Positions 29,214-56,299 of a stretch of 64,000 bases of DNA are shown here, one piece after another. Each line of letters begins with the position of its first letter. Within the stretch, counting starts at the first letter, position 1. The translations under genes were made by a program, and so were the position numbers. This stretch comes from Tubulanus polymorphus (Eukaryota > Nemertea > Palaeonemertea > Tubulaniformes > Tubulanidae): the NCBI RefSeq assembly GCF_964204645.1, contig NC_134036.1:9038704-9102703 (forward strand). Direction: 5' to 3'. The notes under the pieces are model-generated. The model saw nothing but the letters and a program-made list of their open reading frames with translations. It made no database searches and had not been told where the DNA came from.

Positions 29214-31116
29214 ATGATCCAACTTCCATTAATAAAGGAAAGGAAAGTTAAAGCTCAACCTGCTGTACAGACTTTAGGCTACTACGACGTTGAAAGAATT
29301 ATTTCGAGAAAGACAGAGGGCCGAAAGGTAACGTTAAGTTAAGAAGCATAGCCATACATTCGTTTAGCCCCCAACGAGACGTAAAATAGCGCACTACGCT
29401 GGTATATTCGGCTAAATGTCTTATTTAGGCCTATGGAATTAAGGTATGAGTGAAGTCACCCGCCTGCGAGGATGCCCTGGTTCCAAATGAAAATATTCGT
29501 AATTTTTCATTTATTATGTTCTAATATCCAGAAAATGAGCATAACGCACAAAACTATTAAGATACATTGATAAAACATTTTTAGATCAATATTTATTATG
29601 TAGATTGCCATTACGAGTTTGGATGGCACTGTTCATGTCTTAAAATTCACGGATTATAATTCGGTATGTGGCTGCCCTGACAGCTAACCGAGCCGACGCT
29701 AGCGCCATCTATCAAACATAAATTGAAGCTGTTGCCCAATTTTACAACAAATACTGCCACAAATCATTGGAAAGGTCTGTTGTGTTTAGTGTCAATAGAA
29801 TTTTCATAGGCCCTATATTTATTAAGATGCCAAGTCTCAGATTCGACTGGCAGTGTTTATTGTTTTTGAAAGATTTGGAGAACAGAAGTTACAACCTGTC
29901 CTAGAAGGGAGGACTAGCCTACTTGTTTTACACATTTCTTCAAACTTCAAAATTTTCATACTGAGAGGAAATCAAGGGTGATGTTGATTTGTAATTGACA
30001 CATAATTCTTGAATTAAGTATAGAACTCCTATGAATAAATACAGTATATAATAGCACATATTATTCGTATGCAGGCCTACTTGTCGGAGAAGGTTCTTCG
30101 GTTTGTTACTGTTGCCTATTTTGTGGCTGAAAATAATGAATAATGAAAAACCCTCATCAACTTTGAGGTGACTGTTTAGTGATACCACACGTTCTGCAGG
30201 CCATAAAAAATTACTTGATTCTCATCAGTTGTGATCAACATATCGGAGAGGGAGGTTTATATTTTGTATGAAATAATATTGATTTATGATGATTTTATAT
30301 CCGTCATATTCATCTAAAAACGACTCTGTCACAATAGCAAGGCCCATTGAGGTTGCGATTTTTTTTAAACCAAAACCGCTTGTCACTGAACAGAAGTGGG
30401 TCAATGTTTGCTGAACTGAACTAGCTTTCAATAATCATTAAATGTGAACTAATTTGAGTGCTATGTCTCACTATTATCTTAAGTGTTTACAATTCGGAGT
30501 GGGCGCTGATAAGAATCAAATAATTTATTTCATAAGATCTAAATGTCATCAAGATGCTGAAGTACTGGTACAAACAAATTGTTGTATTTTTCAGGTTTTC
30601 TTTCTTGTCAAGTGGGAAACTTATAGTATAACTCATTGTTCCTGGGAGCCGTCTTCACATCTGCCACGTCATTTTATTGATAATTACGAGGAACCAAATA
30701 TTGAACCCACACGAATTTCATTTTGGTCCGATCGTTTTTCTGAAGCTGTTAGAAGATTAGTCCTAACTGAAGGAGTAGTAAGGGCAAACATCGAATTTCC
30801 GCTGGATATTTATCGTTATGTTTTTTACGGAAAGGGAACTCTTCTTAAAAATGGATACTTGTCTCTTCAAAAACGCGACTTTGATAAGTTACAACTCGAC
30901 GCTGCTTGGAATTATCGTATCAATAAACATGGGCAGGGACTCAGAATACTATTCCCTGTAGAATTAAAAGCAAAACTATGGTTTAGTCGAAGAATTTATT
31001 ACGTAAATGAGAACAAAAATCTTGATTTTGGGAAGAATCACCCACTCGAGAAAATAATCGTCCTATGTGTAACTATTGCGTGCGATACGGCGACATTGAA
31101 TGATGAAAATTCGTAG
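29214..31116 (+). CDS. Chromodomain protein, two exons
   Basis: Exon 29214-29327 starts with ATG directly after an acceptor (TTACCTACAG) and encodes YYDVERIISRKTEGRK. The donor is AAG|GTAACG. Exon 30595-31116 (acceptor TTTTTCAG, phase 0) continues VFFLVKWETYSITHCSWEP..HLP..FIDNYEEP. Joined, they make a complete chromodomain, the fold that commonly reads methylated histone tails, split at the usual loop. About 135 residues follow with no domain known to me (starting ISFWSDRFSEAVRRLVL). Stop TAG at 31114-31116. Upstream exons are possible. It is next to a transposase-like gene on the same strand. A chromodomain captured by or domesticated from a mobile element is plausible but unproven. Confidence 0.72.
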
Positions 31117-31635: not shown

Positions 31636-33309
31636 TTGAATGTAGCCCTTCCAAACTTTGTTCAGTTGCACCATACTGAACGTCTGAATCAAAGAATCAA
31701 AGAAATCTGTTCCTCTGTAAAAAACAAGTACCAGAACTTGTCCGGTAGAAGGTACATGGAACTGAATGCTAAAGTGTGGTCAATGGGCATATATGCCCAT
31801 GAACTAGTTGATGTTGGGGGGCAAGTTCAGAATTGTAAAATTTTGACCTCTGAAAACTGTGACCTACACAGAAGGATTGATCTACTTTTGAAATCAATCA
31901 TTGAATATCAAAACAGTACCCACTCCTTGTCTACCAAATGTCAGGAACAGCAAATAGAAATTGAAAGATTGAGCTCATCATTAAGTAATTATCTAGACAA
32001 GGTTTATAACAATCCTATCAAGACAAATAGTGGGAAATTATTTCATGATCTTAGTGATTGGCAACAAAAGCGTAGACTTCATTCGCTACATGGGGAAATT
32101 GAAAGGGCTCTATGGTTTATGGAAACATATGGCTTGGAAATTGACTCCTTGACTGTAACTATTGGAACTAACGAGCATAATATCAATTTCAAATCTGACA
32201 ACAGCAGGAACATAGGTAGTTATGAGAAATTGTCAGACTCCGTGAAGGACAAATTGAAAAATATTTTGTATGTGCTAGACTCATTTTGTATCAGCGATGC
32301 TGCCTACCATGAATTGACCGTTCTTGATTCAGAATTACCAAAGAAGTCACTTATAGTTCAATGTAGGGAATCTCTGTCAGATATATATTCCATACATAGG
32401 GCTGTTGGGGGAATACCAGGAGCCTACATAAGTTTCCATGAGCAAGTAGCTCTTCTGGTTAAGAATGACCCTTCTCTTCAGTCTGCTGAGAAAATTGTCA
32501 TAAAATTGCGTGGTGATGGAGCAAACATGAGTCGTGTTAGTAGTTTCCTAACTATGTCACTTGCCATTCTGAAAGAAGGGGCAAACACAGGTGTACCTAT
32601 TCCTATTGCAATTCTTAACCAGTCTGAATCGTATGATTCTATCAAGAATGGTCTCAAGCCACTCATTGAAGAAATCAATGAAATATTGATTCAAAAGAAA
32701 ATGGCTATTAATGGTCTATCATATGAGGTTGAAATTGTATTAGGTGGCGATATGAAATTTTTACAACTGTTGTGTGGTTTAAAAGGCAGTACAGCCAATC
32801 AAAGTTGTCCATGGTGCAAAGTGCACAAAGACAACAGACATGAGTGTAATCATAATTGGGATCATTTTCATCAAGATCCTCTTGTCAGAACCTATGATAA
32901 TTTAGTGAATGATGCCCTTGAATCCAAAAACGGGGTAGACCATCTACATATATTAAAGATAGATCCAGGAAACATTGTTATTGATGAGCTTCATCTATTA
33001 CTAAGAATATTTGATGTATTATTGCGTAATATCATCACTGATGTTAAGGATCTTGATGACTTTGCCAGACTTGGCCAGCTAGATACTGCTAATCAACCAC
33101 TAATAGGAGATAAACTACAAAATCTTTGTAAACTGATAAACTCATGTGGTGTGACTTTCAGGATATGGGAAGTCAGAGATCCATTAACACATAAAGGTAC
33201 TGGCAAACTTGATTGGACATCTGTTCAAGGACCCGATGTAAAAACCATTATGACACTTCTACCTCAGATGTTACAGGGGTCAGATGTCATGCATGCACAG
33301 ACAAAACAT
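31636..33309 (+). pseudogene. RNase H-fold transposase-like gene, 5' part, split by element A
   Basis: Open frame entered near an acceptor (AATGTAG). Order of parts: coiled-coil-like region (residues ~70-120); FHDLSDWQQKRRLHSLH and LWFMETYGLE, typical of this animal family; IKLRGDGANMSR (Asp ~294); VLGGDMKFLQLLCG (Asp ~372) followed by a CPWCKVHKD zinc-binding motif; and DELHLLLRIFDVLLR (~450). These fit the D, D part of an RNase H-like transposase core. The family is widespread in aquatic invertebrates but unnamed to me. The reading stops just inside element A. The original frame resumes at 41634. Confidence 0.78.
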
Positions 33310-34486
33310 CACGACCGTACGCGAACACGCGAAAACGAGTAACGCTCGGCGACCCGCAACAATTGTATTGATTGGCGGGATTCGACCTCTCGCTAAAAAT
33401 AGCTGAGCCGCTATCACGTGATCGAGCTAATGGTTAAAGGATAGCACGGAGGTTGTGGACGGGTTTCCTTATTGCTGGTTCAATGATGACGTATATCATC
33501 CCCTCGTGCCTTGGAAATAAACTTAGTTCCCATCTCAACTTCGTCAAGTTTTTACTTTTTCGCTGAGTGATCTAGTTTTCGCGCTATACAGGCGCAAAAA
33601 CTTGGGATATTCTGGATTTTTCCACGCATGCGGAAGCCGCTGGTAATAAACTAATTTCTTCTCAGTGATCAAATATACAAAATAAAACGAAACATCTCGA
33701 AGAAGAAAATTTTCCCACGTTTAATTTGATATACGATACGTCTATATTACGATAAATGTTGACTGACCACTTTTGCAATCCGCGTCCGGGATTTTCTACA
33801 AAAAGATGCCACTCGGATTAGGCCTCAGCCCACATGCTAAAAAGCGATGTTATCGTTTCAGAATATCCGGATAGTTATTATTTGAACTATCATATGACAT
33901 GAAATTTGAGTCCATTAGGCCTAATAATGTAAATTTCAATACCAAAACAAAGTAGGTCCTGATGTGGATCGAGTAGGCCTAATACGCCCTTAGGTCTACC
34001 CCCGGCCCGGTACCAAATTAGCTGTTTAAATACTAATTATCATAGGCCTTCCTAATCCAGCAGGCCGTAGGGTGGGTGGAATTAGGGGGGGGGGGGGGGG
34101 GGTGGTTGCTGATTTCATTTTAGTGGAACTTTTAACAAATGGGGGGGGGGTCTAGAAAACCCGCATACTGGTACTAGGAAGATCAGACTGCATTTAAAAA
34201 TCAGATAAAATTCTCAGTTTGCAGTACATCAAATTCTTAGGTTGTTTTTTATACTGATGTTTAATTATATTCTAGATCGGAACGCACAGTGGTCCAGGTA
34301 TCCCAAGTTGTTTTGATCGGCGACGTGAGCTGCTGAACCAGTGTAGGCCTATAAAATCTTACGGGTAATGTAAGTGTAAGTTAAACCTTTATCTCTAAAC
34401 CAAATAATTGAAATTATTTACTTTGCTTTATAACGGCTGATGATACTTCCAGGAACGGAAATCAGCAGTATTGATCTAAATTATCT

Positions 34487-34616
34487 ATGTTCACGATGGC
34501 GGATAAAAATGTAAACAGGAGTCTCGAGTCAAAGGGTGTGAGAGGAAAAAGAAAACTTTATTTTGGAGGGAATAAAAAGGGAAAGAAAAACAAAATCAAA
34601 AAGATGATAGAATCAA
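34487..34616 (+). CDS. First coding exon of the element A gene (basic N terminus)
   Basis: Starts at ATG 34487 or the nearby ATG 34496 and ends at A|GTAAGT. It encodes a lysine-rich segment GKRKLYFGGNKKGKKNKIKK that could act as a nuclear localisation or DNA-contacting tail. The paralogue at 48592-48704 encodes GKRKLYYGSNQKSKKNKAKV at the same phase, which supports it as a real exon. A middle exon ending at 35070 (VTLEG|GTAAG) fits the phase of the main exon; its start is unresolved. Confidence 0.7.
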
Positions 34617-34773
34617 GTAAGTATTCTATGATCCTATTTTCATATGAATTTACTGTTAATGTTAGTGTTCTTATTTCAATTAAGTGTTATCAATAAAAGC
34701 TCTAATGTATTATTACGTGATTCTTTTTTCCATTTTCATCAGTTTTAAAATCAATCGTGTATAGTTAACTCAT

Positions 34774-34884
34774 ATTTAAGTCTTCCTTTGATTATCTCCA
34801 ACCAAAAAGTATACTCTCTCAAAAATAAATTGTGAAGTTCTTTAATAAAATAAACAGGCCCGATAATCAAAGGAAGACTTAAAT
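34774..34884. repeat. Perfect 22-bp inverted repeat
   Basis: ATTTAAGTCTTCCTTTGATT (first 20 of 22 bases) at 34774-34795 is exactly complemented at 34863-34884, with a 67-bp spacer. It lies in intron 1 of the element A gene. It could be the ends of a tiny MITE or an intronic hairpin. Poly-G runs at 34087-34105 and 34141-34150 lie upstream. Confidence 0.75.
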
Positions 34885-35473
34885 ACATGTAAGACTGTAA
34901 ATTCCAAAAAGCATTTTTCCAATGACGTTACAATGGATTTTCCCATGACGTGACTATTGCGGACTGCCGAGAGGATTTTTTTGTGTTAGACCGAGTTCCA
35001 GTTCTGTGATTTTCTCAGAATATTGCCACCTTGTGTTGATAAACCACCAACAATTGAAGTCACACTGGAGGGTAAGTTTTATAGTAGTAAATTATATAAT
35101 TTATTCTCTCACCGACATGAAATGAAGTCATTCATTATATTAAAACAATTTTGCCAACATATCAAGTATCAGTTTGTGTCATCAATAAATATATTAATGG
35201 CAATACATTTCGTGAAGTTCAAAAGTTCTGAAAAGTTAATTTGTTACACTAACAATGGTTGTTTCATGTACTAATAAAAATCTAAACAGTGAAACTCTCT
35301 TAAGTCAGGATGATCATGATGTAATCCAGATGAAGACTTACTAAATTTTAGTCCTATAGAAATTGGGACTAAAATATAGATAACATTTGTTATGTGACAT
35401 ATATGATGATGACTGAAGCGAGTTTAACTGTATATTAAAGATTAAATGATCACTTATTTTGTGTAAATTCAAA

Positions 35474-35756
35474 GCTGGATTCACACTACCACTAGTTCGA
35501 CCGGTTTAGTTTGGATTGGATCAAATCACTGAGTGTGCGTTCACATACGCGTTGCTAAATTGGTTCCAGATTGTAATGACTTGCAGTTTTATATTTGAAC
35601 AATTGTGATGATTGCAGTTTATTATATTATATAATATACTGCAATCATCAAAATTGTTCAATTCAATAGTTTTAAACTCATCACGCTTTGGTCCAGTCCA
35701 AGTTGGACCGGGCCAAATTTAGACCAGTCTAAATAACTTTGTGTGATCACGCTTTA
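35474..35756. mobile_element. MITE-like element, second copy of the 2614 family
   Basis: Left end GCTGGATTCACACTAC and CTAGTTCGACCGGT; right end complement of AAAGCGTGATCACAC and TTTAGACTGGTCTAAAT. An internal palindrome at about 35598-35659 pairs GAACAATTGTGATGATTGCAG with its near complement. It lies in the intron before the main exon of the element A gene. Confidence 0.55.
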
Positions 35757-35889
35757 ATGAACTTCAATACATTGCTTTATTAATATGCGAGATGCAAAAT
35801 GCACTTTATTTCATTTCTTAATACTTGCAAGTAGCAATACCTTTTTTATTTAAATGTTTTATTTATGTTTTCATTTTGATTTGATTAAG

Positions 35890-38696
35890 GAAACATGAAA
35901 GCAACTAACATGAACAGTAGTGAAGATCTCCAAAATTCTGCCGCCCACTCGTACTCGAATACATCATCAGATGCAGAAAGTTTATCATCATTTTCATCAG
36001 ATTCATCACATATTCTACCTCTGGCAACATCAAGTCCTATCCATCCCACTGTTCCATTGAATTCATTTAAAACACCCCTTCAATTTACCCCATTAGTTCA
36101 GAAAGTTCATCAGGAATCTCAAACAGACGTAGAAGAAGGAAAAGTTAATCTACACATATCCCTATTACAGAAAGAACTAAAACAAAGAGATGGTCAGCTA
36201 GTTAAAATGGAATTAGAAATTGAACAGTTGAACAATACAATCGTTCAATTGAACCAACAATTGATGGAAAAAAACAACATATTACTCGAAAAAGACAAGA
36301 AAATCAAAATTGTTCAGGCCGAAAACAAAAGTCTTAATAGCATAAAGTCGCACATGGATTCTGTTTTTGGCGCAACCAATATTGTTCAGCTTCCTGATAG
36401 CTATACCATCAATGATCCAATCTTTAAAGGTCGACTTATATCATCCGCGCACACATCCACTTTCACTAAATTAGACGAACCAATTGTACCATCACTTTCA
36501 GCCAGTCAACAAACAGTAGAGAAGAGGGCAGCAAAATTGAAAACCATTTTAGATTATACATCAGCGAAAAAACCTACAATAGAAAATAGTTCATTTACTT
36601 TAGCTAAATTTCTGAATCAATATCAAAATCTCGCTAACAATGCATTGAAAATTGCTCGATTCAATGCTGTTTCAAAAACCCTCACACCAGAAGAAGCGGT
36701 CGAACTAAAATTAAGATTACGCTTGACGATGACTCGTTTGCTTCAGTTAATACAGGTTCTAAGATACTACAAAATTAATATATTTCCTGCAATAGCCAAA
36801 ATTAGAGCCGAGATTGAGATGCGTGGCAGGAAATTGGCTCCTTACATATCGGTCGGAGAGAAACCACTAGAGGTGAATAGTCGCACCCACGAGATAAAAA
36901 TTTCCCCATATGCAACAATATCCAATGTTAAACATCAGCTTGAAAGGACTGTGTCACGGTTAATAAGATCTGGCAAATTGATTGATTCAGAAGCATTTCA
37001 CGGGGAAATCTGGGTTAAGATTGGAATTGACAAAGGGGGTGGGAGTACAAAGATGATTTATTCTATCGTTAACAGCAGGGTGGGTAATAATCCCGACGAA
37101 GCTGAAATGTTAGGATATTTCGAAGGAACTGACTCTACCGTAAATATGGAGAGCATATTTGGGTATTTCAGACATGAAATGTCCGCAACAAATTACATCG
37201 ATGTAGAGATTGAAAATGAAGAAAAGAAAGTAATAGTTCGATTTTTCATTATCGGCGACTATCATTTTCTATGTCAGTGCCTAGGTCACCAAGGATCTAC
37301 TGCTACGTATCCTTGTGTGTGGTGCCTTGTCAAACTAGAGGACATCAGGAAAAAGAATAGTTTGCCACATAACTTGGAATCCTGCAAGTTCACAGAGAGA
37401 ACAATTGCACAGTACAAAGACAATCTAGGCAGGCTGAATGAAATTCAGCCTGGACCAGAAACTGAAAATGTATGCGCACCAATGCTTATAATGCCTGATG
37501 ACTTGGATCATGTTGTCCCCCCTCCACTACATATATCCCTAGGCCTCGGTCTTTTCTTTTTCAACATGTTGGAAGACAAATGTAAAGACATAGATAGAGT
37601 TTCGCTAGGAGATCGAGATCCTGATCTCAACGCCGAATGGCAGGATCTCTCAAAAAATCTTTCAAGATTAACCGCTGAATTAGAGTCATTGAAATTAGAA
37701 ATCAACAGTAGTAATGATGTATTAGACATGTTAAAGACTGCCAAGAAGAAAAAAAGAACACCAATTAGCTGCACGGCACCTATATGTATTATTCGAACCA
37801 TTGAACAGGCAAAGCCTCATCAGTATACTTACTGTAAAGAATGTGAGGCTCCATATCACAGTCAGTGTATCGATAATGTAGATAATTTCATTTGTGTCGA
37901 ATGTGTCACTGGTAAGAAACCATCAGCAGATTCTATAATCAAACAAAGTGTGAAATACATCAATGATTTAAAAACTCTACAAAATAGCACAAAATCACAA
38001 ATAGGTGAAGCCCAAACTCTACTCAACAAAGTATTCGAAAGAGTCAACGCTAAGATGGGTCCACTGCAGAAACGCCTGAATGAAATACTTAAAGAAATAG
38101 GAATCGATAAACAGGCATATCATTCGAATTCCTTTGTAGGAAATCATATCCACAAATTACTGTATATAGATCAAAGGTCGGGTGTAAACAACCCTCAGAA
38201 ATTATGCAAAGTTCTTGCCGGGCACCCAGAGGAGGAACATAAATTCTATTCTCTGTTTGAGAAATTCCATCATTTATACAGCTTATATACAGCCAACCGG
38301 ATGCTTACCCCTCAGGAAATTGATCAGTTAGATTATCTTTGCAATACATTTGGATCATGGTTCCCTAAAACCTTCCCCCAAACTAATATCACACCCAAGC
38401 TCCATATACTTCTGTTTCATGTACCTAGATTTGTTAGATTATGGGGCTCTCTAGGCCTGTTTAGCGAACAGGGCCTAGAGTGCAAACATGCAAGTGTAAA
38501 CAGAGATGCACGGATTTATTGCACAATACGAAACAACATCTTCAGAACCAAACTACTATTCATCAATCAAGGATTGTATACAACTAAAACCCTGAAGATC
38601 GATGCTATAAAAAGAAAATGTCAATGCGGAGGTTTCTATAAAAAAACCAATGAAGGTAGAGTTTGTAAAATCTGCAAGAAAAATGCAAAATTATAG
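35890..38696 (+). CDS. Main exon of the element A transposase-like protein with PHD-like finger
   Basis: Acceptor TTGATTAAG before 35890, in phase with the exon ending at 35070. 933 codons from the ATG at 35895. Layout: Ser-rich N terminus; coiled coil (~80-148); VKIGIDKGGGSTKMIYS (Asp ~379); FIIGDYHFLCQCLGHQG (Asp ~455) with YPCVWC; VPPPLHISLGLG; a second coiled coil; a PHD-like C4HC3 finger (~626-676: CTAPIC, CKEC, HSQC, CVEC); then ITPKLHILLFHVPRF and SEQGLECKHAS (Glu ~858-862); and a C-terminal zinc motif CQCGGF...CKIC. D, D, E with zinc insertions indicates an RNase H-fold transposase. It has no internal stop, so the element may encode an active protein. The exact superfamily is unknown to me. 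Confidence 0.8.
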
Positions 38697-38833
38697 ATTT
38701 ACCAAAATACAACAATTAAAAACCAATTTTCATACAGTAAATGAAAATGGTATATGAATTGAAATCCTTGATTAGTATATAGATAGTAGTTATGAAACCG
38801 TGAATACGCAATTAAGCAACTTGAATATCAATA

Positions 38834-39414
38834 GTCAGTGTAGAGGTGGAAGCGAAATGGGCCAGCATTCCTTCTGTTTAAATCTCTCCCGCCCGCTACA
38901 CTGGCCAGGGGATAATTTCAGTTGCTTATTTTGGAATATTGGTTTAAGGCAGGTGTGCATCAAACACTCACCGTTAAGAAAATCCTGTAAAGATAATTCC
39001 ACATTGACTGATTAAAAACTTGTATTGTAGTAAATCTGTAAATATAGTAAAATCAAAATGTTATTATCTATGAATTTCACCTTAAATCCAAATTAAGCAA
39101 CTTGAATATCAATAGTCAGTGTAGAGGTGGAAGCGAAATGGGCCAGCATTCCTTCTGTTTAAATCTCTCCCGCCCGCTACACTGGCCAGGGGATAATTTC
39201 AGTTGCTTATTTTGGAATATTGGTTTAAGGCAGGTGTGCATCAAACACTCACCGTTATGAAAATCCTGTACAGATAATTCCAAATTGAATGATTAAAAAC
39301 TTCTATTGTAGTAAATCTGTAAATATAGTAAAATCAAATTATCTTTGAATTACACTATCAATTCCAAGTAATTTGAATATCAATAGTCAGTGTAGTCAGC
39401 ATCGCTACACTGAC
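38834..39414 (+). repeat. Element A hairpin array, three modules
   Basis: Modules at 38834-38906 and 39115-39187 are nearly identical (period 281 bp, including flanking sequence). Each begins GTCAGTGTAGAGGTGG and ends CCCGCCCGCTACACTGG, so the ends pair. A third module at 39386-39414 is reduced to a perfect 10-bp hairpin, GTCAGTGTAG with CTACACTGAC. They start about 140 bp after the transposase stop. Confidence 0.85.
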
Positions 39415-40338
39415 CCAAGTCAGGTATCAAAAATTGAACGCAACGTTTTGGTAAAGTCGCTATTGGTTTTCAATGAGAAAATAATTCAAAACGTGACTGT
39501 TATTGGCTTAAATTGTTTCATGAAACCAGACCCAGGGGCTTATTTTAGAATATTGAAGGCAGGTGATGGGAAATGTACATCCAAATTAACTGAATAAATA
39601 CTTCTAATTGTAAATACATTAAAATCATATCTGTAAATACGATGAATCAAAGTTCTAATAGCCTACATTGAGACTATAATGTTTTCTTAAAATAACTAAA
39701 AAGCTGTAGGCCTATCTTGTATCAAACTTACATATTTGATTATATGCTTACAAACAGCGAATTAAACATTTTACGTTAAATTTATGACAATGCGTTCGGC
39801 TTACCTTCCTTTTTGTGATCATAAAACTGCAATGACCAGATAATTTGCATTACTCTTTCCAGGCTGAAAGACAAAAATTTGAAATTTTCAGTTGACTTTT
39901 TGATCCAGACAGCGTAGCATGAAATAACAAAAATGGTATCGTGCTAACCTTAATAATATGCTCTTCCATAGTCCATCATGTACGCTATATCACACTAGGC
40001 CCATGTGGTGTTTGAGTCAAGTCGTTTGGGCAGCAAAAATTAGGCAGATAAAACTTCCAATAGATAACATTCACACGGACCTTATCGCTGTAAAAAGTAG
40101 CCTATCCTACGGCACGCACCCCCGCCTCTCACCCTTAAAGTGCACTGCTGAACTGACCTTTTTGTGCGAACCAAGACAATGCACAATGAAAAATCCTTTA
40201 TCTGATTCAATTTGTGAGTTAAAAAGCCCTGAACGTGGCTACGTAGGTCTGATTTTAAAAAATATCCCAAGGGAGGCTCCATTTAAATTCCCCAGGCCGG
40301 AAAGCATATAACCGCTGCTTCGGGTATGTCTCAGCTAC

Positions 40339-40886
40339 CTAATGTCTATTTATTAATGGATGAGACCTGTTTTTCTGGGATATTTTGCTTACTTTTTGGG
40401 GTACATACCTCATTTATGTCTTAACAGAATGCCAAAAATTGCGGACAACAACTGAATATCCGATATATTTCCAGTTCTGTACCAATTAGATGGATTGGCA
40501 AAAAGACTCCTTAAGTCCAATTGAATGAGAGAGAAAATCCTCCATTTTGTGAAATTTCTTGAATTTTTACATTGTCACCATGCCTACGAAATGAAGTTAT
40601 TTTTCTTGTGGGGTCTCAACAACTAAATCAGGGTGGCGTAGGCATGGTAACAATGTTCAAATCCAAGAAATTTGACAAAATGGAGGATTTTCTCTCTCAT
40701 TCAACTGGACTTAAGGAGTCTTTTTGCCAATCCATCTAATTGGTACAGAACTGGAAATATATCGGATATTCAGTTGTTGTCCGCGATTTTTGGCATTCTG
40801 TTAAGACATAAATGAGGTATGTACCCCAAAAAGTGAGCAAAATATCCCAGAAAAACAGGTCTCATCAATTAATAAATAGACATTAG
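40339..40886. mobile_element. Fold-back element, ~250-bp inverted arms, nested in element A
   Basis: 40339-40588 begins CTAATGTCTATTTATTAAT and is almost perfectly complemented by 40637-40886, which ends ATTAATAAATAGACATTAG. The central loop is about 48 bp. No ORF of note. Transcribed, it would form a long double-stranded RNA. Confidence 0.9.
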
Positions 40887-41633
40887 TCGATACATGAGGA
40901 TGGCTTGGCTGAGGCCTTTTAATTGTTTGATAAGGACTAGGCCTACTAATCTTATGTAGACTAGGCCTACGGACCCATTTCCCCCCATCGATTATCATCA
41001 TGGTGAGTTAAGTAGCCTACCTGGCATTTAGCTTCGTGTAAATATTGCATCACCTTTACTCATGTCTCAATTCGACATCTACTGACTAATTTACCAGGTG
41101 TTATGAGTCTAAATCGAGAGTGACTAACTAAGTAACTGAACGCGGAAGTAGAAGTTTTTGTCGTAATTTTAGATTTCGACCTGCCGGGTACACTACCCCT
41201 ATCACCCCAGGCCCAGCTAAATACATCTATTGCAATCCTCATAGCGTTTAATTCTAATTTATGAAATTTTGATAACAAAAAAACAAATCAGTAAACGGTT
41301 TCTGCCTTCAAATACACGACGAATTTCACATCGGCAAAACAAAACAACCGTCCGCCATTTTGTTAAAATAATCCGCTGTCACATGACTACGAGTATCAGA
41401 ATATATATATTAATATGTTATTTCAATGGATCATACAAGTTATTCTTAATATTAGAGGGATAATGGATATTTAAGATAAATTGCGTTAAAATCAAATTGA
41501 TTTCGATGAATGTAATATGTGTTCGTATTCAACGTCGGAGACTGCCGAGCTTGGGTGAGCGTGAAGCCACGAAGCTTAGCTCCGCCCACTATAAGTTCGA
41601 GTTCACGCTGCGATAGACCGCTGTACGGTCGTG

Positions 41634-42268
41634 ACATGATGTATTACAACTGTGGATTAATTTCTTTGATTTGTACAAATATTTGTCTGATGATACACAT
41701 GTACCAGAACTATTGGTTTTCTTTAAAAATGTGAAAAATTGGATCACTGATTTTCTCAGTCTTGGTTCTCAAAGGAAGGGATACAAGAAGGCCAATATCA
41801 CACCCTATATGCATGCGCTTCTTTTCGATGTACCTTTCTTTTTGGACAAATTTGGTCCGCTCAAAAGGTATACAGGACAAGGGATAGAAAAGTTGAATGC
41901 GATTATCAAAAGGTACACATGGCTAAGACCTGTAAGGCTGATTCAACTAAGGAGGTATTAACGGTCCTGAAAAGAATAGAACATTTAAAGGACTCTGGCC
42001 ATGAAAGAAAGAAAAGGGCATATAAGAAAACTGATCAAATTACTGGTTGTGGGAAAAGCACTCCCGGGCTCAAAGAAAAAAGCGTAGAATACTGCAGGAG
42101 ATACAGGAAAATTGTGTTCCATGTGATCCTGTACCTGAAAGTGTTGAGGGATTAAGGTCTGATCTTTTGAAAATGGGTGTTAAAAGTATGCGTAGAACCT
42201 ATGAACCCTTGAATAAATTATTCTTGATGAAAAGAGAGTTGTTATTAAAGCCTAGCAATTCAAAATGA
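41634..42268 (+). pseudogene. 3' part of the split transposase-like gene
   Basis: After the duplicated ACAT the frame continues with DVLQLWINFFDLYKYL, ITPYMHALLFDVPFFLDKFG and TGQGIEKLNAI, whose Glu is the likely third catalytic residue. Two frameshifts follow, near 41910 and near 42045. After them AKTCKADSTKEVL and then AQRKKRRILQEIQ run to a stop at 42266-42268. The gene was therefore already decaying, or has decayed since element A landed. Confidence 0.75.
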
Positions 42269-46523: not shown

Positions 46524-48591
46524 GTCTATAGGCCAATCTGTCAGTAAGTGCCCTCCCTGAGAGACGTTCCGCTTGACCCCTGTCTGTCACGCATGCTCTC
46601 CATGCAACATTTTGATCCGCAATATCTGGATATTCAGTTCATCTACAATTATTCAGTCTGAATACCAGACGTTACGGTCCCCTATGTCTGATACCAAACT
46701 GTCATAGGCCCTATAGAGGTTAATTCCTGTTTCTTGCAGTGCAACCACAGTTTTTTTTCCACAATCCAAGCTATTTTATCAAATGAACTGAATAATTACC
46801 TTAAAGATCAAGTGTAGCCAAATTTATCAAAATTTTTATTATGATTTTATTCAATAGATAAATAACCCGCATACCAGTAAAAAATGTTATTTTTTCGAGA
46901 AACACTCAGTTTGAATAAATATCTGGGTTTGAAAAATAGATAACAGGTGCGTGAATTTCAGAGCGCGCGCTGACTATTCGCTATGCGTGTGACGTCATAC
47001 GGGCTACAGAGCGAATACAACGTGCACAAGCCGTCGCAAAACCGACATACGTCCGGCTTAAGTCATTAGCAATTAATGAAATACCTGTTCCATTTATGAT
47101 GAAAAAACTCAAATGAAAAGTCTGGCTTATAAAGCTGTCTGCTCATACGAAATGTTTAAAACAACTCTTCATTTTTTCCAATAAAATTGATAATTGTGAT
47201 TGATCGTTGCAAGTCAGAACCAGTTAATCACTAATTAACATGCATATTAATAAATCTGATTCCTCCTTTACAGTGAACTTAGCTTTAACCTAGTAGAGGC
47301 TACTAGCCTATCACGACGATACGCGATAAGGCAATAACGACTAACAATGTGAGCGCGTAGTTAAGCAAGGGCGCGCTATTTTTAACTTTCTGATCGCGTG
47401 ACTTCATGACGTCACGAGGCATAATGCTAGTGAATAGGAAAATCTACGGTTTTTAGTGGCATGTTTCTTGCGCTATTTAGCATAATCGTCCCCTGCCAGA
47501 TTGCAAATAACATTCAACTGGCCTGGCTCCACCGCGCTAAATTTGCCGTTTTTTGAAATTTCCCCGACGTTGTCGCCTGTCCGGCTCGAAAGTCTAGCGA
47601 TAATCGGACGACCTATGTGTAAGTATACCACCAAATACATCAGGAAATACTTAATCTGAGGATAAGAATAATTATATCTGTAAACATAGCGCTGAGCGTG
47701 AGCTTATCTAGTTTTAATTGATATATTATAAGTGGTGTTTTTGTAACCGTATCGCTGAGAAATCGTGTCGCTCCTAACCCGGAAATAAGTTTTAGTCGAT
47801 TTCGATCATCATTCAAATTTGCAGTATCTTTATCTTTATAGGCCTTGCCTCATTTGAACACCGAATTTAGTGATATCCATGAGAGATAATTCATATTGAA
47901 TCGTATGTTCAATAGTAGAGAGGCCTGATTCATGTCCAAAAGCAAAGCCAAATCAAATAGTAGTCCCCTTTTAGACTTTCTGTTCGAATATCCACTTTTC
48001 TCTTTCAGGATATTTTTCGTCGTTTAAATTCCTACTGTACTCATAAAATAAGATATCGTCTCGTGAGGTAGGCTCAAAAATCAGTCATTTTTCAAATCGA
48101 AAACTTTTTCTTGGACTTTGAAATAAAAAAATTGATCAATCATGCATGTAACTTCAATAATTTCAGATTTTTCGTGGTCCTTCAGTGGCAGGCTGCCGTC
48201 GGGTGGGGCCCTTCAATATCGTCTAGTTAGGTAGGCCGAAAAATGTATTTCATACTAAAAAGTTCTCCTCGGGCTAAAAATTCCTTGATTAAGCTGTACT
48301 TTTGTTTATAATTTCAGATTTTTCGCAGTCGCAGTGTCAGTCTATACCAAAAAGTTAAAAATTCCTTGATTAAGCTGTAGTTTTTTGTTTATAATTTCAG
48401 ATTCGCAGTGTCAAGAGTCCAACCGCAAGTGTTGATATTGATATCGTTTAGACTGCAGTCTGGCCATATTTTTAATTTAGTCAGGTGAGGTAAACCAACA
48501 ATTTAATTTCGTATGCTAAGTTGAAAAACCATCTCATGCTTACAAATAAGCGGTTACTTTGTTACTTGAATTGGCATGATTTCAATTTCAG
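46524..48591. other. No gene recognised; ~75-bp tandem pair near 48277-48420
   Basis: AAAAATTCCTTGATTAAGCTGTA followed by GTTTATAATTTCAGATT occurs at about 48277 and again at about 48355. Each copy carries an acceptor-like TTTCAG, so they may be alternative or decoy acceptors upstream of the element B first exon. The 5' boundary of element B was not found here. Confidence 0.5.
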
Positions 48592-51500
48592 AATGGCAGA
48601 AAATTTTGACAGGAAAGTTGGTCAAGGCAAACGTAAGCTTTATTATGGGTCCAACCAGAAAAGTAAGAAAAATAAAGCTAAAGTAAAAAAAATGATCGAA
48701 GCAAGTACGTATATCAATACAATTCTTTTTATGTCCCAGTAGTTTCATTCTTCACTCCCAAAATGCCAACTATGAATCATGCCTATGCCTCGGCTGTGCC
48801 CATTGCATTTTGCTGGCAAGTTAGTTATTCATGAATAAGGTATACATTTTCGATTTTTGATTTGTAAGTATATTTGTTAAAAATATAATCTATAGCTGCA
48901 TTCAAATGAGAGTGAAAAATAAACTTTGGAATTTGTTATTTAAATTAAGTGTTTATTTTCTGATTGAATAAAAACAATAATTATATTTTCTGACTTATTT
49001 TCTGACTTTTTAAGTTCTGATTTATTTTTCAAAAAGGAACTGATTTCTAAACATGCTCTGAATCAAAGTATCTAGGGATCATGAAGATCTTAAATGGCAA
49101 TTCTCAAATAAATGTGTTTCGTGTATAGTCTACTCCTGTTGTGCCTATTAACCCATTCCCCCCTAAGCCAATATCAGTATTGAAACATTAATAAGAGTCT
49201 CGTATGTATTCTTGGAAAACAGGCCTCAGGTTTACAATGTATACAATGCACATGTTCATATTTAAGAATTGTTCAGAAAAAGGAGGTGAAGTAATTATAT
49301 TATGATGACTGCCAGTGAGTGAGACTGAGAATTTGAGGGTTTATGAGTGACAACAACCCGCAATAACAAAAGGGTAAAACTCTCACCACTATTCCATTGG
49401 CATTTATCTGGATTGTTGTTAACTACAAACTTAAGAACTCAAATGAACCCTAGCAAGTGTAAAGACACAATGTTCTACGTATAATGTTATTGTGGGTCTT
49501 ATATTTGAAATGGAAAGAAATTATGATAAAAATGGTTAGGTAAGTTGAATTATATTTACTAACTGGTGACTAATACTTCCTATTTATGAATATATGGATT
49601 AATGAGAAAACAACAAAACTAAATTAATTAGTACCATATGTACACTTCCATTGATCTTTTATTTCAACTGATAATGATCGACATTGGTTTATAAATGAAG
49701 GGACTCGTATGCATGAAAATTAATTCATTGAAATTGATTGTATTTTACCATCTATTGATTCAATAGGAAATGCAAAATGGGGAAATACGAGCCTATTGAG
49801 TGAAAGTGTGTCTAGCCAGTTTTCTCCTCAATCGCAAACTTCATTTGACGAAAAAGAATCAAATATTCAGCCTCCATTTACCAGTACTCCATTTACGTCC
49901 CCTGTTATGTATGTACCAAGTACCAACGTTGAAACATCTGTACCGACCTATCATTTCAAAGAGGATCGCAGCTGTCAAACGGAGAACACTGCAACTGAAA
50001 ATAAACAAGAAATTAAGATCAAACTACTTGAGTCGAAAATGAGACAGATAGAAAGTGAGAAATTGGTTTTGCAATCAGAAAATGTAAATTTAGCAGAGCA
50101 AATCAAAATTAAAGATCAGAAATTAGAAGAGTTACAAAATCAGATATTGCAATACGAACAATATGAATCTCTAATCAGAAATAAAAGCTTATTAGAAATA
50201 TGCGGAGGAAATATGAATAGCATCTTCGATGCTCGTCACTTAACGAAGTCTCGCCCTGAAAAGTTTTGCAAATTGAGCATCCCTAATGTCCCATCATCAG
50301 CGGCAAGTTCCCAAACTCTAGAAGCTCGAGCATTGACAATGAAAAATGTATTAGACACAATATCAGCTAAACCAATCAATTCATATCAGAGCAGCATCAC
50401 GCTTTCAACATTTCTATCACACAATCCCAAATTATCTAAATCTGCAATAGACCATTCTCAACAATTACATCTACTCAAACCATTAACCGCATCGCAATCT
50501 GTTGAATTAAAACTTGCTCTGCGTCTGCCGATGAGACGACTTTTCGACTTGAAACGGGTTCTAAAAAGCTATGGAACGCCAATCTTTCCATCTGCAAACA
50601 AAATCCGACAAGAGATCTTGCAGAGGGGAAAATCTTTCACCCCCTATATCACTGTAGGCCAAACAGAATTAGAAGTTAATTCGAGAACCCATGAAAAAAA
50701 GACAGCTCCTCATGCAACTCTGACCAATTTGAAGTTACAAATTCAAAGAACTGTACAAAATCTATCTGACCGAAAGAAAATGAGTTTTCATCCAAATTTT
50801 CACAATGAAGTTTGGGTCAAAGTGGGTATTGACAAGGGAGGGGGTAGTACAAAAATGATATACTCGGTTATAAATGGGGAAGGGAACAACAGTGCAGATG
50901 CCAGCGAAATGATTGGCTATTTTGAAGGCACTGATATTGTTGAGAATATGAGAACGGTATTCGGGATTTTCAAAGATGAAATCGATGCTAATGATATCAC
51001 TATATCAACAATGATTGATAATAGAAAATTAGATTTGCCTGTTAGGATGTTCCTCATTGGGGATTATGCATATCTGTGTAACTGCATGGGTCACCAGGGG
51101 CCCTCGGCTACCTATCCCTGTTTATGGTGCCAAGTAAAACTTGAAGATCTTAGGAAAAAGAACAGAACACCACACAATCCATCTTCCCATCCATATCAAA
51201 ACCGTACTATCGCATCATATCTCGAAAATTCATCAAAATCACCACAATCATTCGGCCCAGAAACCTTGAGTATTTCATCATCAATGCTATTCAAACCATC
51301 AGACATGCTTCATCTCGTTCCTCCAGTTCTCCATATTTCCCTAGGATTAGGCCACCGTTTCTTTGAGATGATGGAAAACAAGTGCAAAGAACACGACCAG
51401 ACAAACTTAAGGGAATCGAACCCTGAATTAAACAAAAAAATGGCAAGACCAATCAGAAGTAGTTTCAAAATTAAGACTAGAAATCGAATCGAAACAATTG

Positions 51501-52472
51501 TCTTTTGAATCATCCAGCCAATTACTTAATCTCATGAAAATTTCCCACCGTAAAGGTTCATCGGTAATTGACTGCACGGCATCCATCTGCTTCATTCGCT
51601 CTATTGAAAATGCAAACCCAAATGAATATACATACTGCGTAGATTGCAACTTACCTTTTCATAAACAATGCGTATCGAATATAGAATGTTTTACTGGTCG
51701 CAAACCATCAGCAGATTCTATCATAAAAAAACAAAACATCATCATCACAAAGCTAAAAAAAGACATCTCAACTTTGAAAACACAAATAGCCCCGGAACAA
51801 TCTCTTCTGAATGAAATTTTCAAAGAAATTAATAGTATTCAAGGACCGACCCAAAAAAAACTCAACAATATCCTATCTGAGATTGGTATTGTTCGACAGG
51901 CCTACCATTCGAATAGTTTTGTCGGCAATCATATCCATAAAATGTTCAAAATCGATGAATCAAAAGGAATCAATAATCCGCGTAAATTATGTGAAGCACT
52001 AGAATTTGACCCAGCTACTCAGTCATTATTCCAACTTTTGTTTGAGAAATTTCACTCAATCTATACATTATATACGGCAAACCGTTTCCTTGAAAATTCT
52101 GAAGTTCAAGAACTAGGTAGGCTTTGTGATGATTTCGGTATGTGGTATCCGAACGCGTTTCCGGACACAAACATCACTCCGAAAATGCACATGCTAATTT
52201 ATCATGTACCAGAATTTGTTCGTGTCTGGAGGACAATTGGCATGTTTGGCGAACAAGGACTGGAATCTAAACATGCTAGTGTCAATAAAGATGGACGAGT
52301 TTATTGCACTATAAGGGACAATATTCTACGAACCAAGTTAATCTTCATTAATCAGGGTCTATATACTACGAAAACGCTAAGTATCGAAACTGTTCCACGC
52401 AAATGTCTGTGCGGTGGATTTTTTATAACTAAACAAAATGAACGAAAATGTCAAAAATGTAGTAAGAGCTAA
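48592..52472 (+). pseudogene. Element B: paralogue of the element A transposase-like gene, one frameshift
   Basis: First coding exon 48592-48704 (acceptor AATTTCAG, ATG at 48593, donor A|GTACGT) and main exon 49767-52472 (acceptor CAATAG) mirror element A in phase and content. The main frame has VKVGIDKGGGSTKMIYS, FLIGDYAYLCNCMGHQG and YPCLWC. It then shifts near 51434-51440 in a run of seven A; dropping one A continues the frame into the finger and C-terminal part (YHSNSFVGNHIHKMF, ITPKMHMLIYHVPEF, GEQGLESKHAS, CLCGGF...CQKC). The PHD-like finger has lost its last C-x2-C pair (IECF replaces FICVEC). The single indel could be a sequencing error, but the finger loss could not. No TIRs were located. 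Confidence 0.78.
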
Positions 52473-52555
52473 ATTTTCAATCAAGTACCAAACATCTAGG
52501 CCTATACTTTGTTATGTGCATTTTCGGAGTGATAGTAATATTTTCACCGTGATGT

Positions 52556-53773
52556 CTGACAGTAGAGAAGTGGATGGGAAATGGGCAACTTTATGGTTTT
52601 TAAACCATAGAGTTATGTTCGGGTTTATTCCCTCCCGCTCGCTCTACTGTCAGTCTATTAACTATTAATGTATTCTGTATATCTATGTCTGTCTATCTAT
52701 CTGTTTGTCTGACAGTAGAGAAGTGGATGGTAAATGGGCAACTTTATGGTTTTTAAACCATAAAGTTATGTTCGGGTTTATTCCCTCCCGCTCGCTCTAC
52801 TGTCAGCCTATTAACTATTAATGTATTCTGTCTATCTATGTCTGTCTATATATCTGTTTGTCTGACAGTAGAGAAGTGGATGGGAAATGGGCAACTTTAT
52901 GGTTTTTAAAACATAGAGTTATGTTCGGGTTTATTCCCTCCCGCTCGCTCTACTGTCAGTCTATTAACTATTAATGTATTCTGTCTATCTATGTCTGTCT
53001 GTCTGTCTGTCTATCTATCTGTTTGTCTGACAGTAGAGAAGTGGATGGGAAATGGGCAACTTTATGGTTTTTAAAACATAGAGTTATGTTCGGGTTTATT
53101 CCCTCCCGCTCGCTCCACTGTCAGTCTATTAACTATTAATGTATTCTGTCTATCTATGTCTGTCTGTCTGTCTGTCTATCTATCTGTTTGTCTGACAGTA
53201 GAGAAGTGGATGGGAAATGGGCAACTTTATGGTTTTTAAACCATACAGTTATGTTCGGGTTTATTCCCTCCCGCTCGCTCTACTGTCAGTCTATTAACTA
53301 TTAATGTATTCTGTCTATCTATGTCTGTCTATGTCTGTCTATCTATCTGTTTGTCTGACAGTAGAGAAGTGGATGGGAAATGGGCAACTTTATGGTTTTT
53401 AAACCATAGAGTTATGTTCGGGTTTATTCCCTCCCGCTCGCTCTACTGTCAGTCTATTAACTATTAATGTATTCTGTCTATCTATGTCTGTCTGTCTGTC
53501 TGTCTATCTATCTGTTTGTCTGACAGTAGAGAAGTGGATGGGAAATGGGCAACTTTATGGTTTTTAAACCATAGAGTTATGTTCGGGTTTATTCCCTCCC
53601 GCTCGCTCTACTGTCAGTCTATTAACTATTAATGTATTCTGTCTATCTATGTCTGTCTATGTCTGTCTATATATCTGTTTGTCTGACAGTAGAGAAGTGG
53701 ATGGGAAATGGGCAACTTTATGGTTTTTAGAGTTATGTTCGGGTTTATTCCCTCCCGCTCGCTCTACTGTCAG
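52556..53773 (+). repeat. Element B hairpin array, eight modules, period ~150-166 bp
   Basis: Modules of ~98 bp start at 52556, 52709, 52862, 53037, 53192, 53355, 53520 and 53683. Each starts CTGACAGTAGAGAAGTGG and ends CGCTCTACTGTCAG, forming a 12-bp terminal stem (copy 4 has one mismatch). Inside are GGGAAATGGGC and CCCTCCCGC. Spacers contain variable (CTGT)n/(CTAT)n tracts. Copy 8 lacks about nine central bases. The array begins some 85 bp after the transposase stop, as in element A. Confidence 0.92.
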
Positions 53774-56299
53774 CCGTAGCCTATAGTCCTATACGAATAA
53801 AGTAAACAATTAAGATATAATCTGCTTACCAGTTATTACTTCGTACATGGGGCAGGGAGGTTAAAAAATCAGAATTTCGTGCTTACGTCTGTTCGTAGGC
53901 CTATGAGATATTGACTTACCGAGATATAACTGTGGCCACAGCCACATTATCAGCCAAATCATCTTTCCTGTTGGTGAATTCCATCCTTTTCTTAAAACAT
54001 GAAATTCTGGTCCACTTATTTTCGACTGGAAAGTCTTTACGGCATAGCCAATCTGAGTTCAGTCCTGGTACAGTCTGCAATAGACCTATATTCGGATAAA
54101 AATTCATGTCACATATTCTGCCGAAACAGCTTCGGTGCATTAGGCCTTTTCATTTCAAAGTATCAGCATGAACTTTTTAGTATTGTGGAGCTGCGGTGAC
54201 CTACGGCTACTACACCAGGTCCAGTCCTCCAGGACAGGAGGTCTTTCGAGTATCATTTTACTATTGAATGTCGAATTATCTGCCATTATACAAAGAGAAT
54301 CTACCATACCTATTTATCATTTTGCGTAAAGAAATGGTTCAGGTGGTTTTGGTAAGCTACAAAGTCAACTAAAAGCCTACACACGTATCAGCAGTACTTA
54401 CTGTCAGCTGGTCAGTCGACTCGAGAACCCGGAAATAGAACAGAAATATTGCATTTCAGAGGCAAATACAGCATCTATCGTACGCATTTACACCAATTAA
54501 GCCATCGTTATCTTCCTTCATCTGTTGCCAATATCAAATATGATATCGTATGCACATAATCCAGTGTTATCCTGTGAAATCTTTGAATTTGACGTCAAAA
54601 ATTATTGAAAACATCGCCGACGGCGGCCATTTTAGGAAAATCACCACCAGGAGGACCACTGCGTATTTTTATAATGAAATATGATTTTATCAATCTAAAA
54701 ACCACAAAAACATATTTCCTGAATGAATATCTGTTAAAGATTTAGAACAATGATTGAAAATTCATATTATGACACACAGCGCAGCGCAAAAATATAATCA
54801 GCAAGTTCACGCACGGTAACTAAGGACGCGCACGTACGCCACTGTCAAGGGTCAAGGTCAAATTCAGCTGAAAGCTTGTACACTCGTGCTATGTAGGCCT
54901 ATGTATATGCGTAGGCCTAACATCCGGACAGATTGGTCGTACGCCTATTGAATAACAACCCTCCTAAATATCCTGAATTTTGTTTTGAAGTTCAATCCAA
55001 TGAGTCCGTTAATTAACGCAACAATTATACTGTGCTTGTTTGAGACAGTAAAGGTCAGTTCCGGTAGGCCTAAGCCTTAAGGTCGCTTAAAACTCGATAA
55101 AACCTTCAAGCGACACAGCGAACGATCTCCTTTCCTCCACAGCGAACGCTTACTCCGAATGTCAAGTGTGAGTCCAGCATACGACTAGGAGTGTGTTATA
55201 TACTTGTATTTAGTAAATACCTTGTGCATTTGACAATGATCGGTATGTATCGGTTAATTCGGTAAAGAAAAATAGGTATTGTTGAAGTAACTCCTTGAAA
55301 CCCGCAGCCAAATCACTGGTAGTAATACATTAATTTGTACTCGATTTTATTCTCATGATGAGGAGAAACTCGCAGCTGATCCCCGGAACGACGATGTAGT
55401 AACACACGTCGATTCGTCGATGTTTACGGCTCGACAGTGCTTTTAAAATCTAAATTAGTAAATTTCCAGTGTATCGGTAATATGATTTGATGAGGAAAAT
55501 AGGCTATTGTTAAAATCACTGTTTGAAGACCGCGGCAATAAATTAGTTCATTTATACTTGAATTGATAATCGAAGTGACAATCGGCCTGCAGGTTGATTT
55601 CGGGATGACGACTCGAAAAAACATGTCGCCCCATTGAATGAGGCTAAATTTTCGATGTTTACGGCCCGACAGTGCTTTTGTAACGATGATTCGTGAAAAA
55701 ACACGCGGAGTATTTGTAGATCTCAGTGAGCTGAACGATATCATACGGATTGTATCGACAACAGCGGCAAGGTAACAAAGCCTTAGTTCTTTTAGTGAAA
55801 ATAGTGTGACATAAAATAATAATAATAAGAAACACGCGAATCTCAATAGGGTTTTCTCTGATGTAACAGAAAACCCTAATTAATTCTTCGATCCCAAATT
55901 ATTCTAAATGTTACTTTTTAGCCCACTTCAGACTTTTGTCCCAGCCGGCTATTGCGTTCACTTTTTGTTTGTCCGTCCGTAGACGGAATTCAGTTATTTT
56001 GGGAAGTTTTGAAGAGTTACGAGCCGCGACAGCCGTTTTTCAGCACTATACGATTCTAGGTAAACAATCGCTGATAGGTGAAAGCTAAAACAAGTTTACG
56101 TGTGGATTTATAGTTAATCCTCACTGAACAAACTGATGAAGATCAAGTGATTATTAACGATATTACAGATCGAAACGTCGCACGGAGAGCATGTGTGACA
56201 GACAGATTTTACTCTTTATATCTTGTCTAAAAAGATATTGCTTGAAATAGATAGGATATGGATAATTAGAGAAGAAATTGGCGAAAACGTTGTGCAGAA
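53774..56299. other. No gene recognised; degenerate ~220-bp tandem pair at 55240-55690
   Basis: Two diverged units each begin near TATCGGT(T)AAT, contain GAAAATAGG.TATTGTT and end CGATGTTTACGGC(T/C)CGACAGTGCTTTT (about 55240-55443 and 55470-55680). At 56133-56176 CTGATGAAGATC...GATCGAAAC resembles a hammerhead core. Open frames here lack domains. Confidence 0.45.

Follow-up and report, generated by a model that had tools for sequence, protein, structure and literature searches.

What is the sequence that interrupts an open reading frame (ORF) in a 64,000-nucleotide stretch of the Tubulanus polymorphus genome (C12:9038704-9102703, hereafter the window), and did it move recently? An earlier reading made from the letters alone (the sequence-only reading) had delimited a DNA transposon here and left its family unnamed. 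Our analysis indicates that the insertion is very probably a young and probably autonomous DNA transposon of the cut-and-paste type, which belongs to the CMCT clade (CACTA/Mirage/Chapaev/Transib, the clade of RAG1), is closest to Chapaev and is predicted to encode a transposase of about 978 amino acids (aa). Its features are listed in Table 1.

The edges of the element were compared with the rest of the genome (268 Mb, 77 contigs). The sequence-only reading had set both edges to the base, each beside an ACAT, had proposed that dropping the element and one ACAT restores a reading frame, and had suggested a search for empty sites. Five loci (L034, L035, L036, L040 and L041) bridge the site, and at each of them the two flanks overlap by exactly 4 bases; L040 and L041 are 99.9% identical to one another. 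A single ACAT was read at the junction of L034 and L035, the two empty sites whose junction letters were read, and the frame of L034 is open across the junction for 758 aa. The sequence obtained by removing the element and one ACAT is therefore a real empty form, and both the exact edges and the restored frame are borne out.

The same reading had asked whether other copies share these termini and had supposed recent movement. The genome holds two instances of the exact terminal 14-mer CACGACCGTACGCG, both on the same contig: in the window element and in a second copy (copy 2; C12:9588338-9604115, minus strand), which has its own duplication, CCAG. The two differ at 16 of 5,624 bases in their three longest aligned pieces, in agreement with recent movement. 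Copy 2 is without two internal stretches of the window element. A genome search with the right end matched only these two elements, and a third copy on C10 has a left end that is 89% identical. The transposase ORF of copy 2 is interrupted by about 6 kb of other sequence (C12:9590979-9597000).

A protein search of the genome returned at least 53 matches. Besides that of the window element, four further subfamilies were distinguished and labelled by the length of their open frames (923, 865, 844 and 964 aa). Within a subfamily, the longest aligned pieces of the copies match with 98.98% to 100% identity, the measured members are 5.5 to 8.6 kb long, and the ends of the further subfamilies (CACGACGATACG, CACGACCGTAGG, CACGGCTGTACG and CACGGCTCTACA) are of the same kind as those of the window element. 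We examined 21 insertions, 2 in the window and 19 elsewhere, and recovered both ends in 17; for L016, L019, L004 and L028 one end was not matched by the pattern in the stretch fetched. CAC...GTG termini were found in all 17; the search patterns started with CACG, so recovery favours such ends, but in the 964-aa and 923-aa subfamilies the left edge was initially fixed by aligning copies. Target-site duplications measure exactly 4 bp throughout these 17 insertions, which come from five subfamilies (ACAT, CTAT, CCAG, ATGC, AATT, ATTG, GATT, TTTC, ATGA, TGTG, GTAT, GTCT, TGTG, TTGG, ACTT, TCAT and TATC). For the 15 insertions outside the window, match lengths from 2 to 10 were tried, and the two in the window were judged by eye; a 4-mer is expected to match by chance at about 1 in 256 sites. 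The expectation that ACAT itself would recur at other sites was ill-posed, because only the length of the duplication is conserved. No word common to the subterminal regions emerged, as the most widely shared 7-mer (4 of ten ends) was equalled or exceeded in 200 shuffles and was dropped. Viral contigs scanned with the family alignment gave 52 pattern-matching stretches, of which 0 encode a relative.

The sequence-only reading had described an unbroken D-D-E transposase-like ORF with a PHD-like finger. This ORF is intact and its motifs are conserved. Pfam DUF1280 matches residues 259-422 of the window transposase (E 1.7e-21) and was matched by 7 of the 8 aligned family members; L027, a C-terminal fragment that lacks the region, may be the member without a match. 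NCBIfam gave nothing useful for three proteins. We compared the eight family proteins (alignment A1) and, in a joint alignment (A4), six of these eight with three of the four proteins of the interrupted target gene, at about 20% identity between the two groups. A4 has 23 invariant columns, among them D455, C474, C477, L545, H546, H837 and E862; D379 and H842 are not invariant in it, and the target-gene protein of L034 has Asp in place of the second His of H(4)H. Of the proteins tested, 6 of 6 from the family and 3 of 3 from the target gene have the second Asp with Cys 19 and 22 residues further on, as well as H(4)H followed by Glu at +20; the same patterns matched once off register in each of L015 and L037. 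The corresponding residues of RAG1 are D708, C727, C730, H937, H942 and E962. In the RAG1 sequence as aligned to the A4 profile, the D-C-C and H-H-E spacings are equal to those of the window transposase. Searched against PDB, the A4 profile returned 22 rows, the nine best of which are RAG1 or RAG1L (E 2.6e-5 to 0.03), and the family profile alone matched RAG1L at E 0.0013.

Several results weigh against this relationship or against a placement with Chapaev. The A4 match to RAG1 comes from the H-H-E part; the D-C-C part is in register but alone is not significant, and the RAG1 piece aligned to it in 3jbw has an i-Evalue of 24. The single window protein reached RAG1 at no better than E 0.94, and the target-gene profile alone at E 0.77 and above, ranked behind coiled coils. 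Transib structures are present in PDB and were absent from the 22 rows of the A4 search. AlphaFold models, made for three window sequences and for the finger segment together with one window relative, had mean predicted local distance difference test scores of 39 and 48, too poor to use. Finally, judged by Cys count, no Cys-rich (Chapa or RING) domain was seen before the first predicted catalytic Asp: the window ORF and exon 1 have 0 Cys there and five relatives have 3-7, L008 with one CxCxC cluster.

For the family, relevant passages of three sources are informative. DUF1280 is described as comprising putative Chapaev transposases in one clade with RAG1 (PMC3985635), the Chapaev hallmarks given are 3- to 4-bp duplications, CAC/GTG ends and C(2)C, LH and H(4)H motifs (PMC4079192), and the wider CMCT clade is defined in PMC12730594. 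The window element shares with Chapaev the CAC...GTG ends, the 4-bp duplication, a DDE transposase with C(2)C, LH and H(4)H, and DUF1280. Unlike Chapaev, it shows no Cys-rich N-terminal region, and it has a PHD-like finger between the second Asp and the Glu, hairpin arrays 3' of the gene in several subfamilies, and members of 5.5 to 8.6 kb. With Transib, RAG1 and ProtoRAG it shares the D-C-C and H-H-E spacing, the CAC ends and the joint-profile match, but Transib and ProtoRAG duplicate 5 bp, which none of the 17 insertions shows. One such 5-bp example, CCAGG, is given in the passage concerned of PMC4411706.

With no Cys-rich N-terminal region seen, the family may be a separate CMCT lineage beside Chapaev, with a PHD-like insert and without a Chapa/RING N-terminus. 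The Chapaev group is described in PMC4411706, in the part that treats it, as having the Chapa zinc domain at the N-terminus and, in two subgroups, a RING finger as well, and our literature search found, among the matches listed, no PHD finger within a Chapaev transposase. On the other hand, DUF1280, the 4-bp duplication and the CAC/GTG ends are stated Chapaev features in the passages cited above, and the Chapa domain is not named among the hallmarks in that of PMC4079192. We regard a separate lineage as a tentative alternative that deserves attention; its mechanism would be compatible with that of a Chapaev relative. Because the Cys-rich N-terminal domain was not seen, we file the element as Chapaev-like within CMCT; it may or may not belong to Chapaev proper.

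Membership of Sola, Kolobok or KDZ, families with which the sequence-only reading had suggested comparison, is very improbable. The 4-bp length is by itself no criterion with respect to Sola, whose duplications are likewise of 4 bp and whose transposase is of the D-D-D/E type. The DUF1280 match, the joint-profile match to RAG1 and the CAC...GTG ends speak against all three, although Sola was not compared by profile. Kolobok duplicates TTAA, which was found in 0 of 17 insertions. Zisupton duplicates 8 bp according to the passage concerned of PMC12730594, and the duplications here are 4 bp in 17 of 17 insertions and vary in sequence, so Kolobok and Zisupton are excluded by the target-site duplication. 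The designation as a DNA transposon stands, and the family once left unnamed is now Chapaev-like. The idea that the flanks match because of a segmental duplication or an assembly chimera, with no insertion, can be set aside almost entirely: the same contig carries repeated target copies and L016 and L017 have a common right flank, so that L016 is not independent, but the 17 insertions lie on C2, C3, C5, C6, C8 and C12 with printed flanks that differ and a 4-bp duplication each, and for the window element the clean empty sites with their 4-base overlap refute it.

Table 1. Features of the Chapaev-like element, its target gene and a second family member (window positions)
Feature	Position	Strand	Basis or detail
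Complete element	33310..41633	+	8324 bp; both edges set by empty sites and copy 2
Left target-site duplication, ACAT	33306..33309	.	one ACAT in empty copies L034 and L035
Right target-site duplication, ACAT	41634..41637	.	empty sites
Left terminal inverted repeat CACGACCGTAC, 11 bp	33310..33320	+	sequence, copy 2, other insertions
Right terminal inverted repeat GTACGGTCGTG	41623..41633	-	sequence, copy 2, other insertions
Likely first exon, 43 complete codons, basic, starts MFTMADKN	34487..34616	+	tblastn
Predicted intron	34617..35889	+	GT/AG join keeps frame open
Main exon with unbroken 933-aa ORF (35895-38696)	35890..38696	+	DDE transposase
Predicted catalytic D1, residue 379, GIDKGGGSTK	37029..37031	+	Asp in 7/7 aligned proteins holding the stretch
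Predicted catalytic D2 (455) and C(2)C (474, 477)	37257..37325	+	Cys at D+19 and D+22; aligned to RAG1
LH motif, residues 545-546	37527..37532	+	invariant in A1 and A4
PHD-like C4HC3 finger, between D2 and E	37770..37904	+	C626 C631 C647 C650 H655 C658 C667 C670
H(4)H (837, 842) and predicted catalytic E (862)	38403..38480	+	E 20 residues past second His
Tandem hairpin array, 3' of gene	38810..39338	+	1.9 copies, 281-bp unit
Internal 250-bp inverted repeat	40339..40886	.	arms 96% complementary, 48 nt apart
Interrupted target ORF, first part	31636..33309	+	multicopy transposase-like gene, distantly related
Interrupted target ORF, second part, to stop	41638..41961	+	window sequence; open across site in L034
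Second family member, 923-aa subfamily	47312..54888	+	7577 bp
Second member, duplication CTAT	47308-47311 and 54889-54892		
Second member, split frame	49883-51505 and 51432-52469		two overlapping ORFs
Second member, hairpin array	52553-53773		7.6 copies, 165-bp unit

The finger between the second Asp and the Glu is an unusual feature of this transposase. All eight C4HC3 ligands are invariant in the 8 family proteins. Pfam PHD matched 1 of 8 members, under the cut-off (E 0.0041), and PDB chains with PHD fingers appeared at E 0.2 and above. We therefore call it PHD-like, on the invariant pattern and weak profile matches with no confident model; as judged from the sequences, a zinc-binding pattern is well supported and a PHD fold less so. 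It may be a chromatin- or protein-binding module. Readers of H3K4me3 carry a Trp two residues before the finger His. In this family that position is an invariant Pro, so classic H3K4me3 reading appears unlikely. The RAG system carries its PHD finger in RAG2, whereas here the PHD-like finger is part of the transposase itself. In the relevant passages of PMC4411706, PHD is mentioned for RAG2 only.

The transposase is probably encoded in two exons. Among the loci compared by tblastn, the likely first exon was matched in two relatives, in L021 at E 7e-4 and in L005 at E 2.6e-6, the latter alignment containing a gap and one stop. The predicted splice from 34616 to 35890 is in frame and would give a spliced frame of 978 aa. 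No other ORF of at least 150 aa was found within the element, and ORFs of that size include no RAG2-like gene, a multi-exon one not having been sought. In the 964-aa subfamily the ends are about 5.5 kb apart, so that there is scarcely space for another gene. The internal inverted repeat at 40339-40886 is nearly wholly missing from the aligned pieces of copy 2.

The interrupted reading frame, which the sequence-only reading had treated as a gene, is real; the gene itself is multicopy and transposase-like, with 27 matches in the genome. Of its other copies L034 is the best, with a rounded identity of 100% over the first part. The target gene and the family transposase are related by hhalign with a probability of 98.6% over the D2 region and agree in how D2 and C(2)C, and H(4)H and E, are spaced, the target family being that of L034 and L037 in the same genome. 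It differs from the window transposase in having no DUF1280 match, about 20% identity and no C4HC3 match. Comparing L034 and L035 with the window did not reveal the ends of the target element; the L034 copy is bounded by window positions 30011 and 44561, and no CAC/GTG ends are found there. An ORF with a chromo domain (Pfam E 2.3e-7; 30454-31116) lies upstream of the interrupted gene and may belong to the same target repeat.

The other unusual feature is an array of hairpins 3' of the gene in several subfamilies. Each unit of both window arrays contains an imperfect hairpin, and the hairpins of the two arrays are related in sequence. A hairpin array was also found in the 844-aa subfamily and at loci that include L015 and L021; the stretches read at L012 (865 aa), L009 (964 aa), L006, L007 and L027 showed none. 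A genome search was made with one unit, and among the matches listed the rows that held only the TGTC-rich tail were dropped and the rest grouped by hand into 21 arrays, from which the array of the window element is itself absent. Seventeen of these 21 lie on the same strand as a transposase match and 51 to 2627 bp downstream of it, and four have no transposase match within 5 kb. AATAAA follows soon after the last hairpin in the 923 and 844 subfamilies, and the first AATAAA past the gene of the window element is near 39593. The hairpins would lie in the 3' untranslated region of the predicted transcript.

Folding of the second member's unit was compared with 200 shuffles and gave a z of -7.0 (-5.6 for the opposite strand). 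The unit of the window element folds only slightly better than its shuffles (z -1.6 and -2.1; equalled by 13 and 9 of 200 shuffles). Among 13 aligned units, changes on both sides that keep the pair were found at 5 of 31 pairs; three of these five stem from the row of the window element alone, and in some rows several pairs are broken. Since compensated pairs are few and some are broken, the case for an RNA is modest. Between the 923 and 844 subfamilies the hairpin shares 103 of 106 bases (97%), compared with 1467 of 2475 aligned coding bases (59%). This conservation could reflect selection or exchange between elements; that the array is a functional RNA part of the element is possible but less likely than not. 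Rfam gave no match at the gathering score for the element or for 52400-54888; low E-values came from microRNA models on long inverted repeats and were not taken as matches. Among the matches listed, the literature search found no Chapaev element with a similar tandem hairpin array.

From these features we can suggest how the element may move. A single spliced gene would produce the transposase of about 978 aa, which would recognise the CAC...GTG ends. Its DDE core, predicted to be RNase-H-like, would cut the ends, and excision may follow the RAG/Transib manner with hairpins formed on the flanking DNA. Joining to target DNA with a 4-bp stagger would then leave the 4-bp duplication of no fixed sequence.

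At this locus a Chapaev-like element, from a group of the RAG1 clade, is available in full and apparently intact, together with its exact ends, its empty sites and relatives that are almost identical. Its PHD-like insert offers a natural comparison for the split between catalysis by RAG1 and chromatin reading by RAG2. The hairpin array is a further component of interest, kept better than the gene between two subfamilies.

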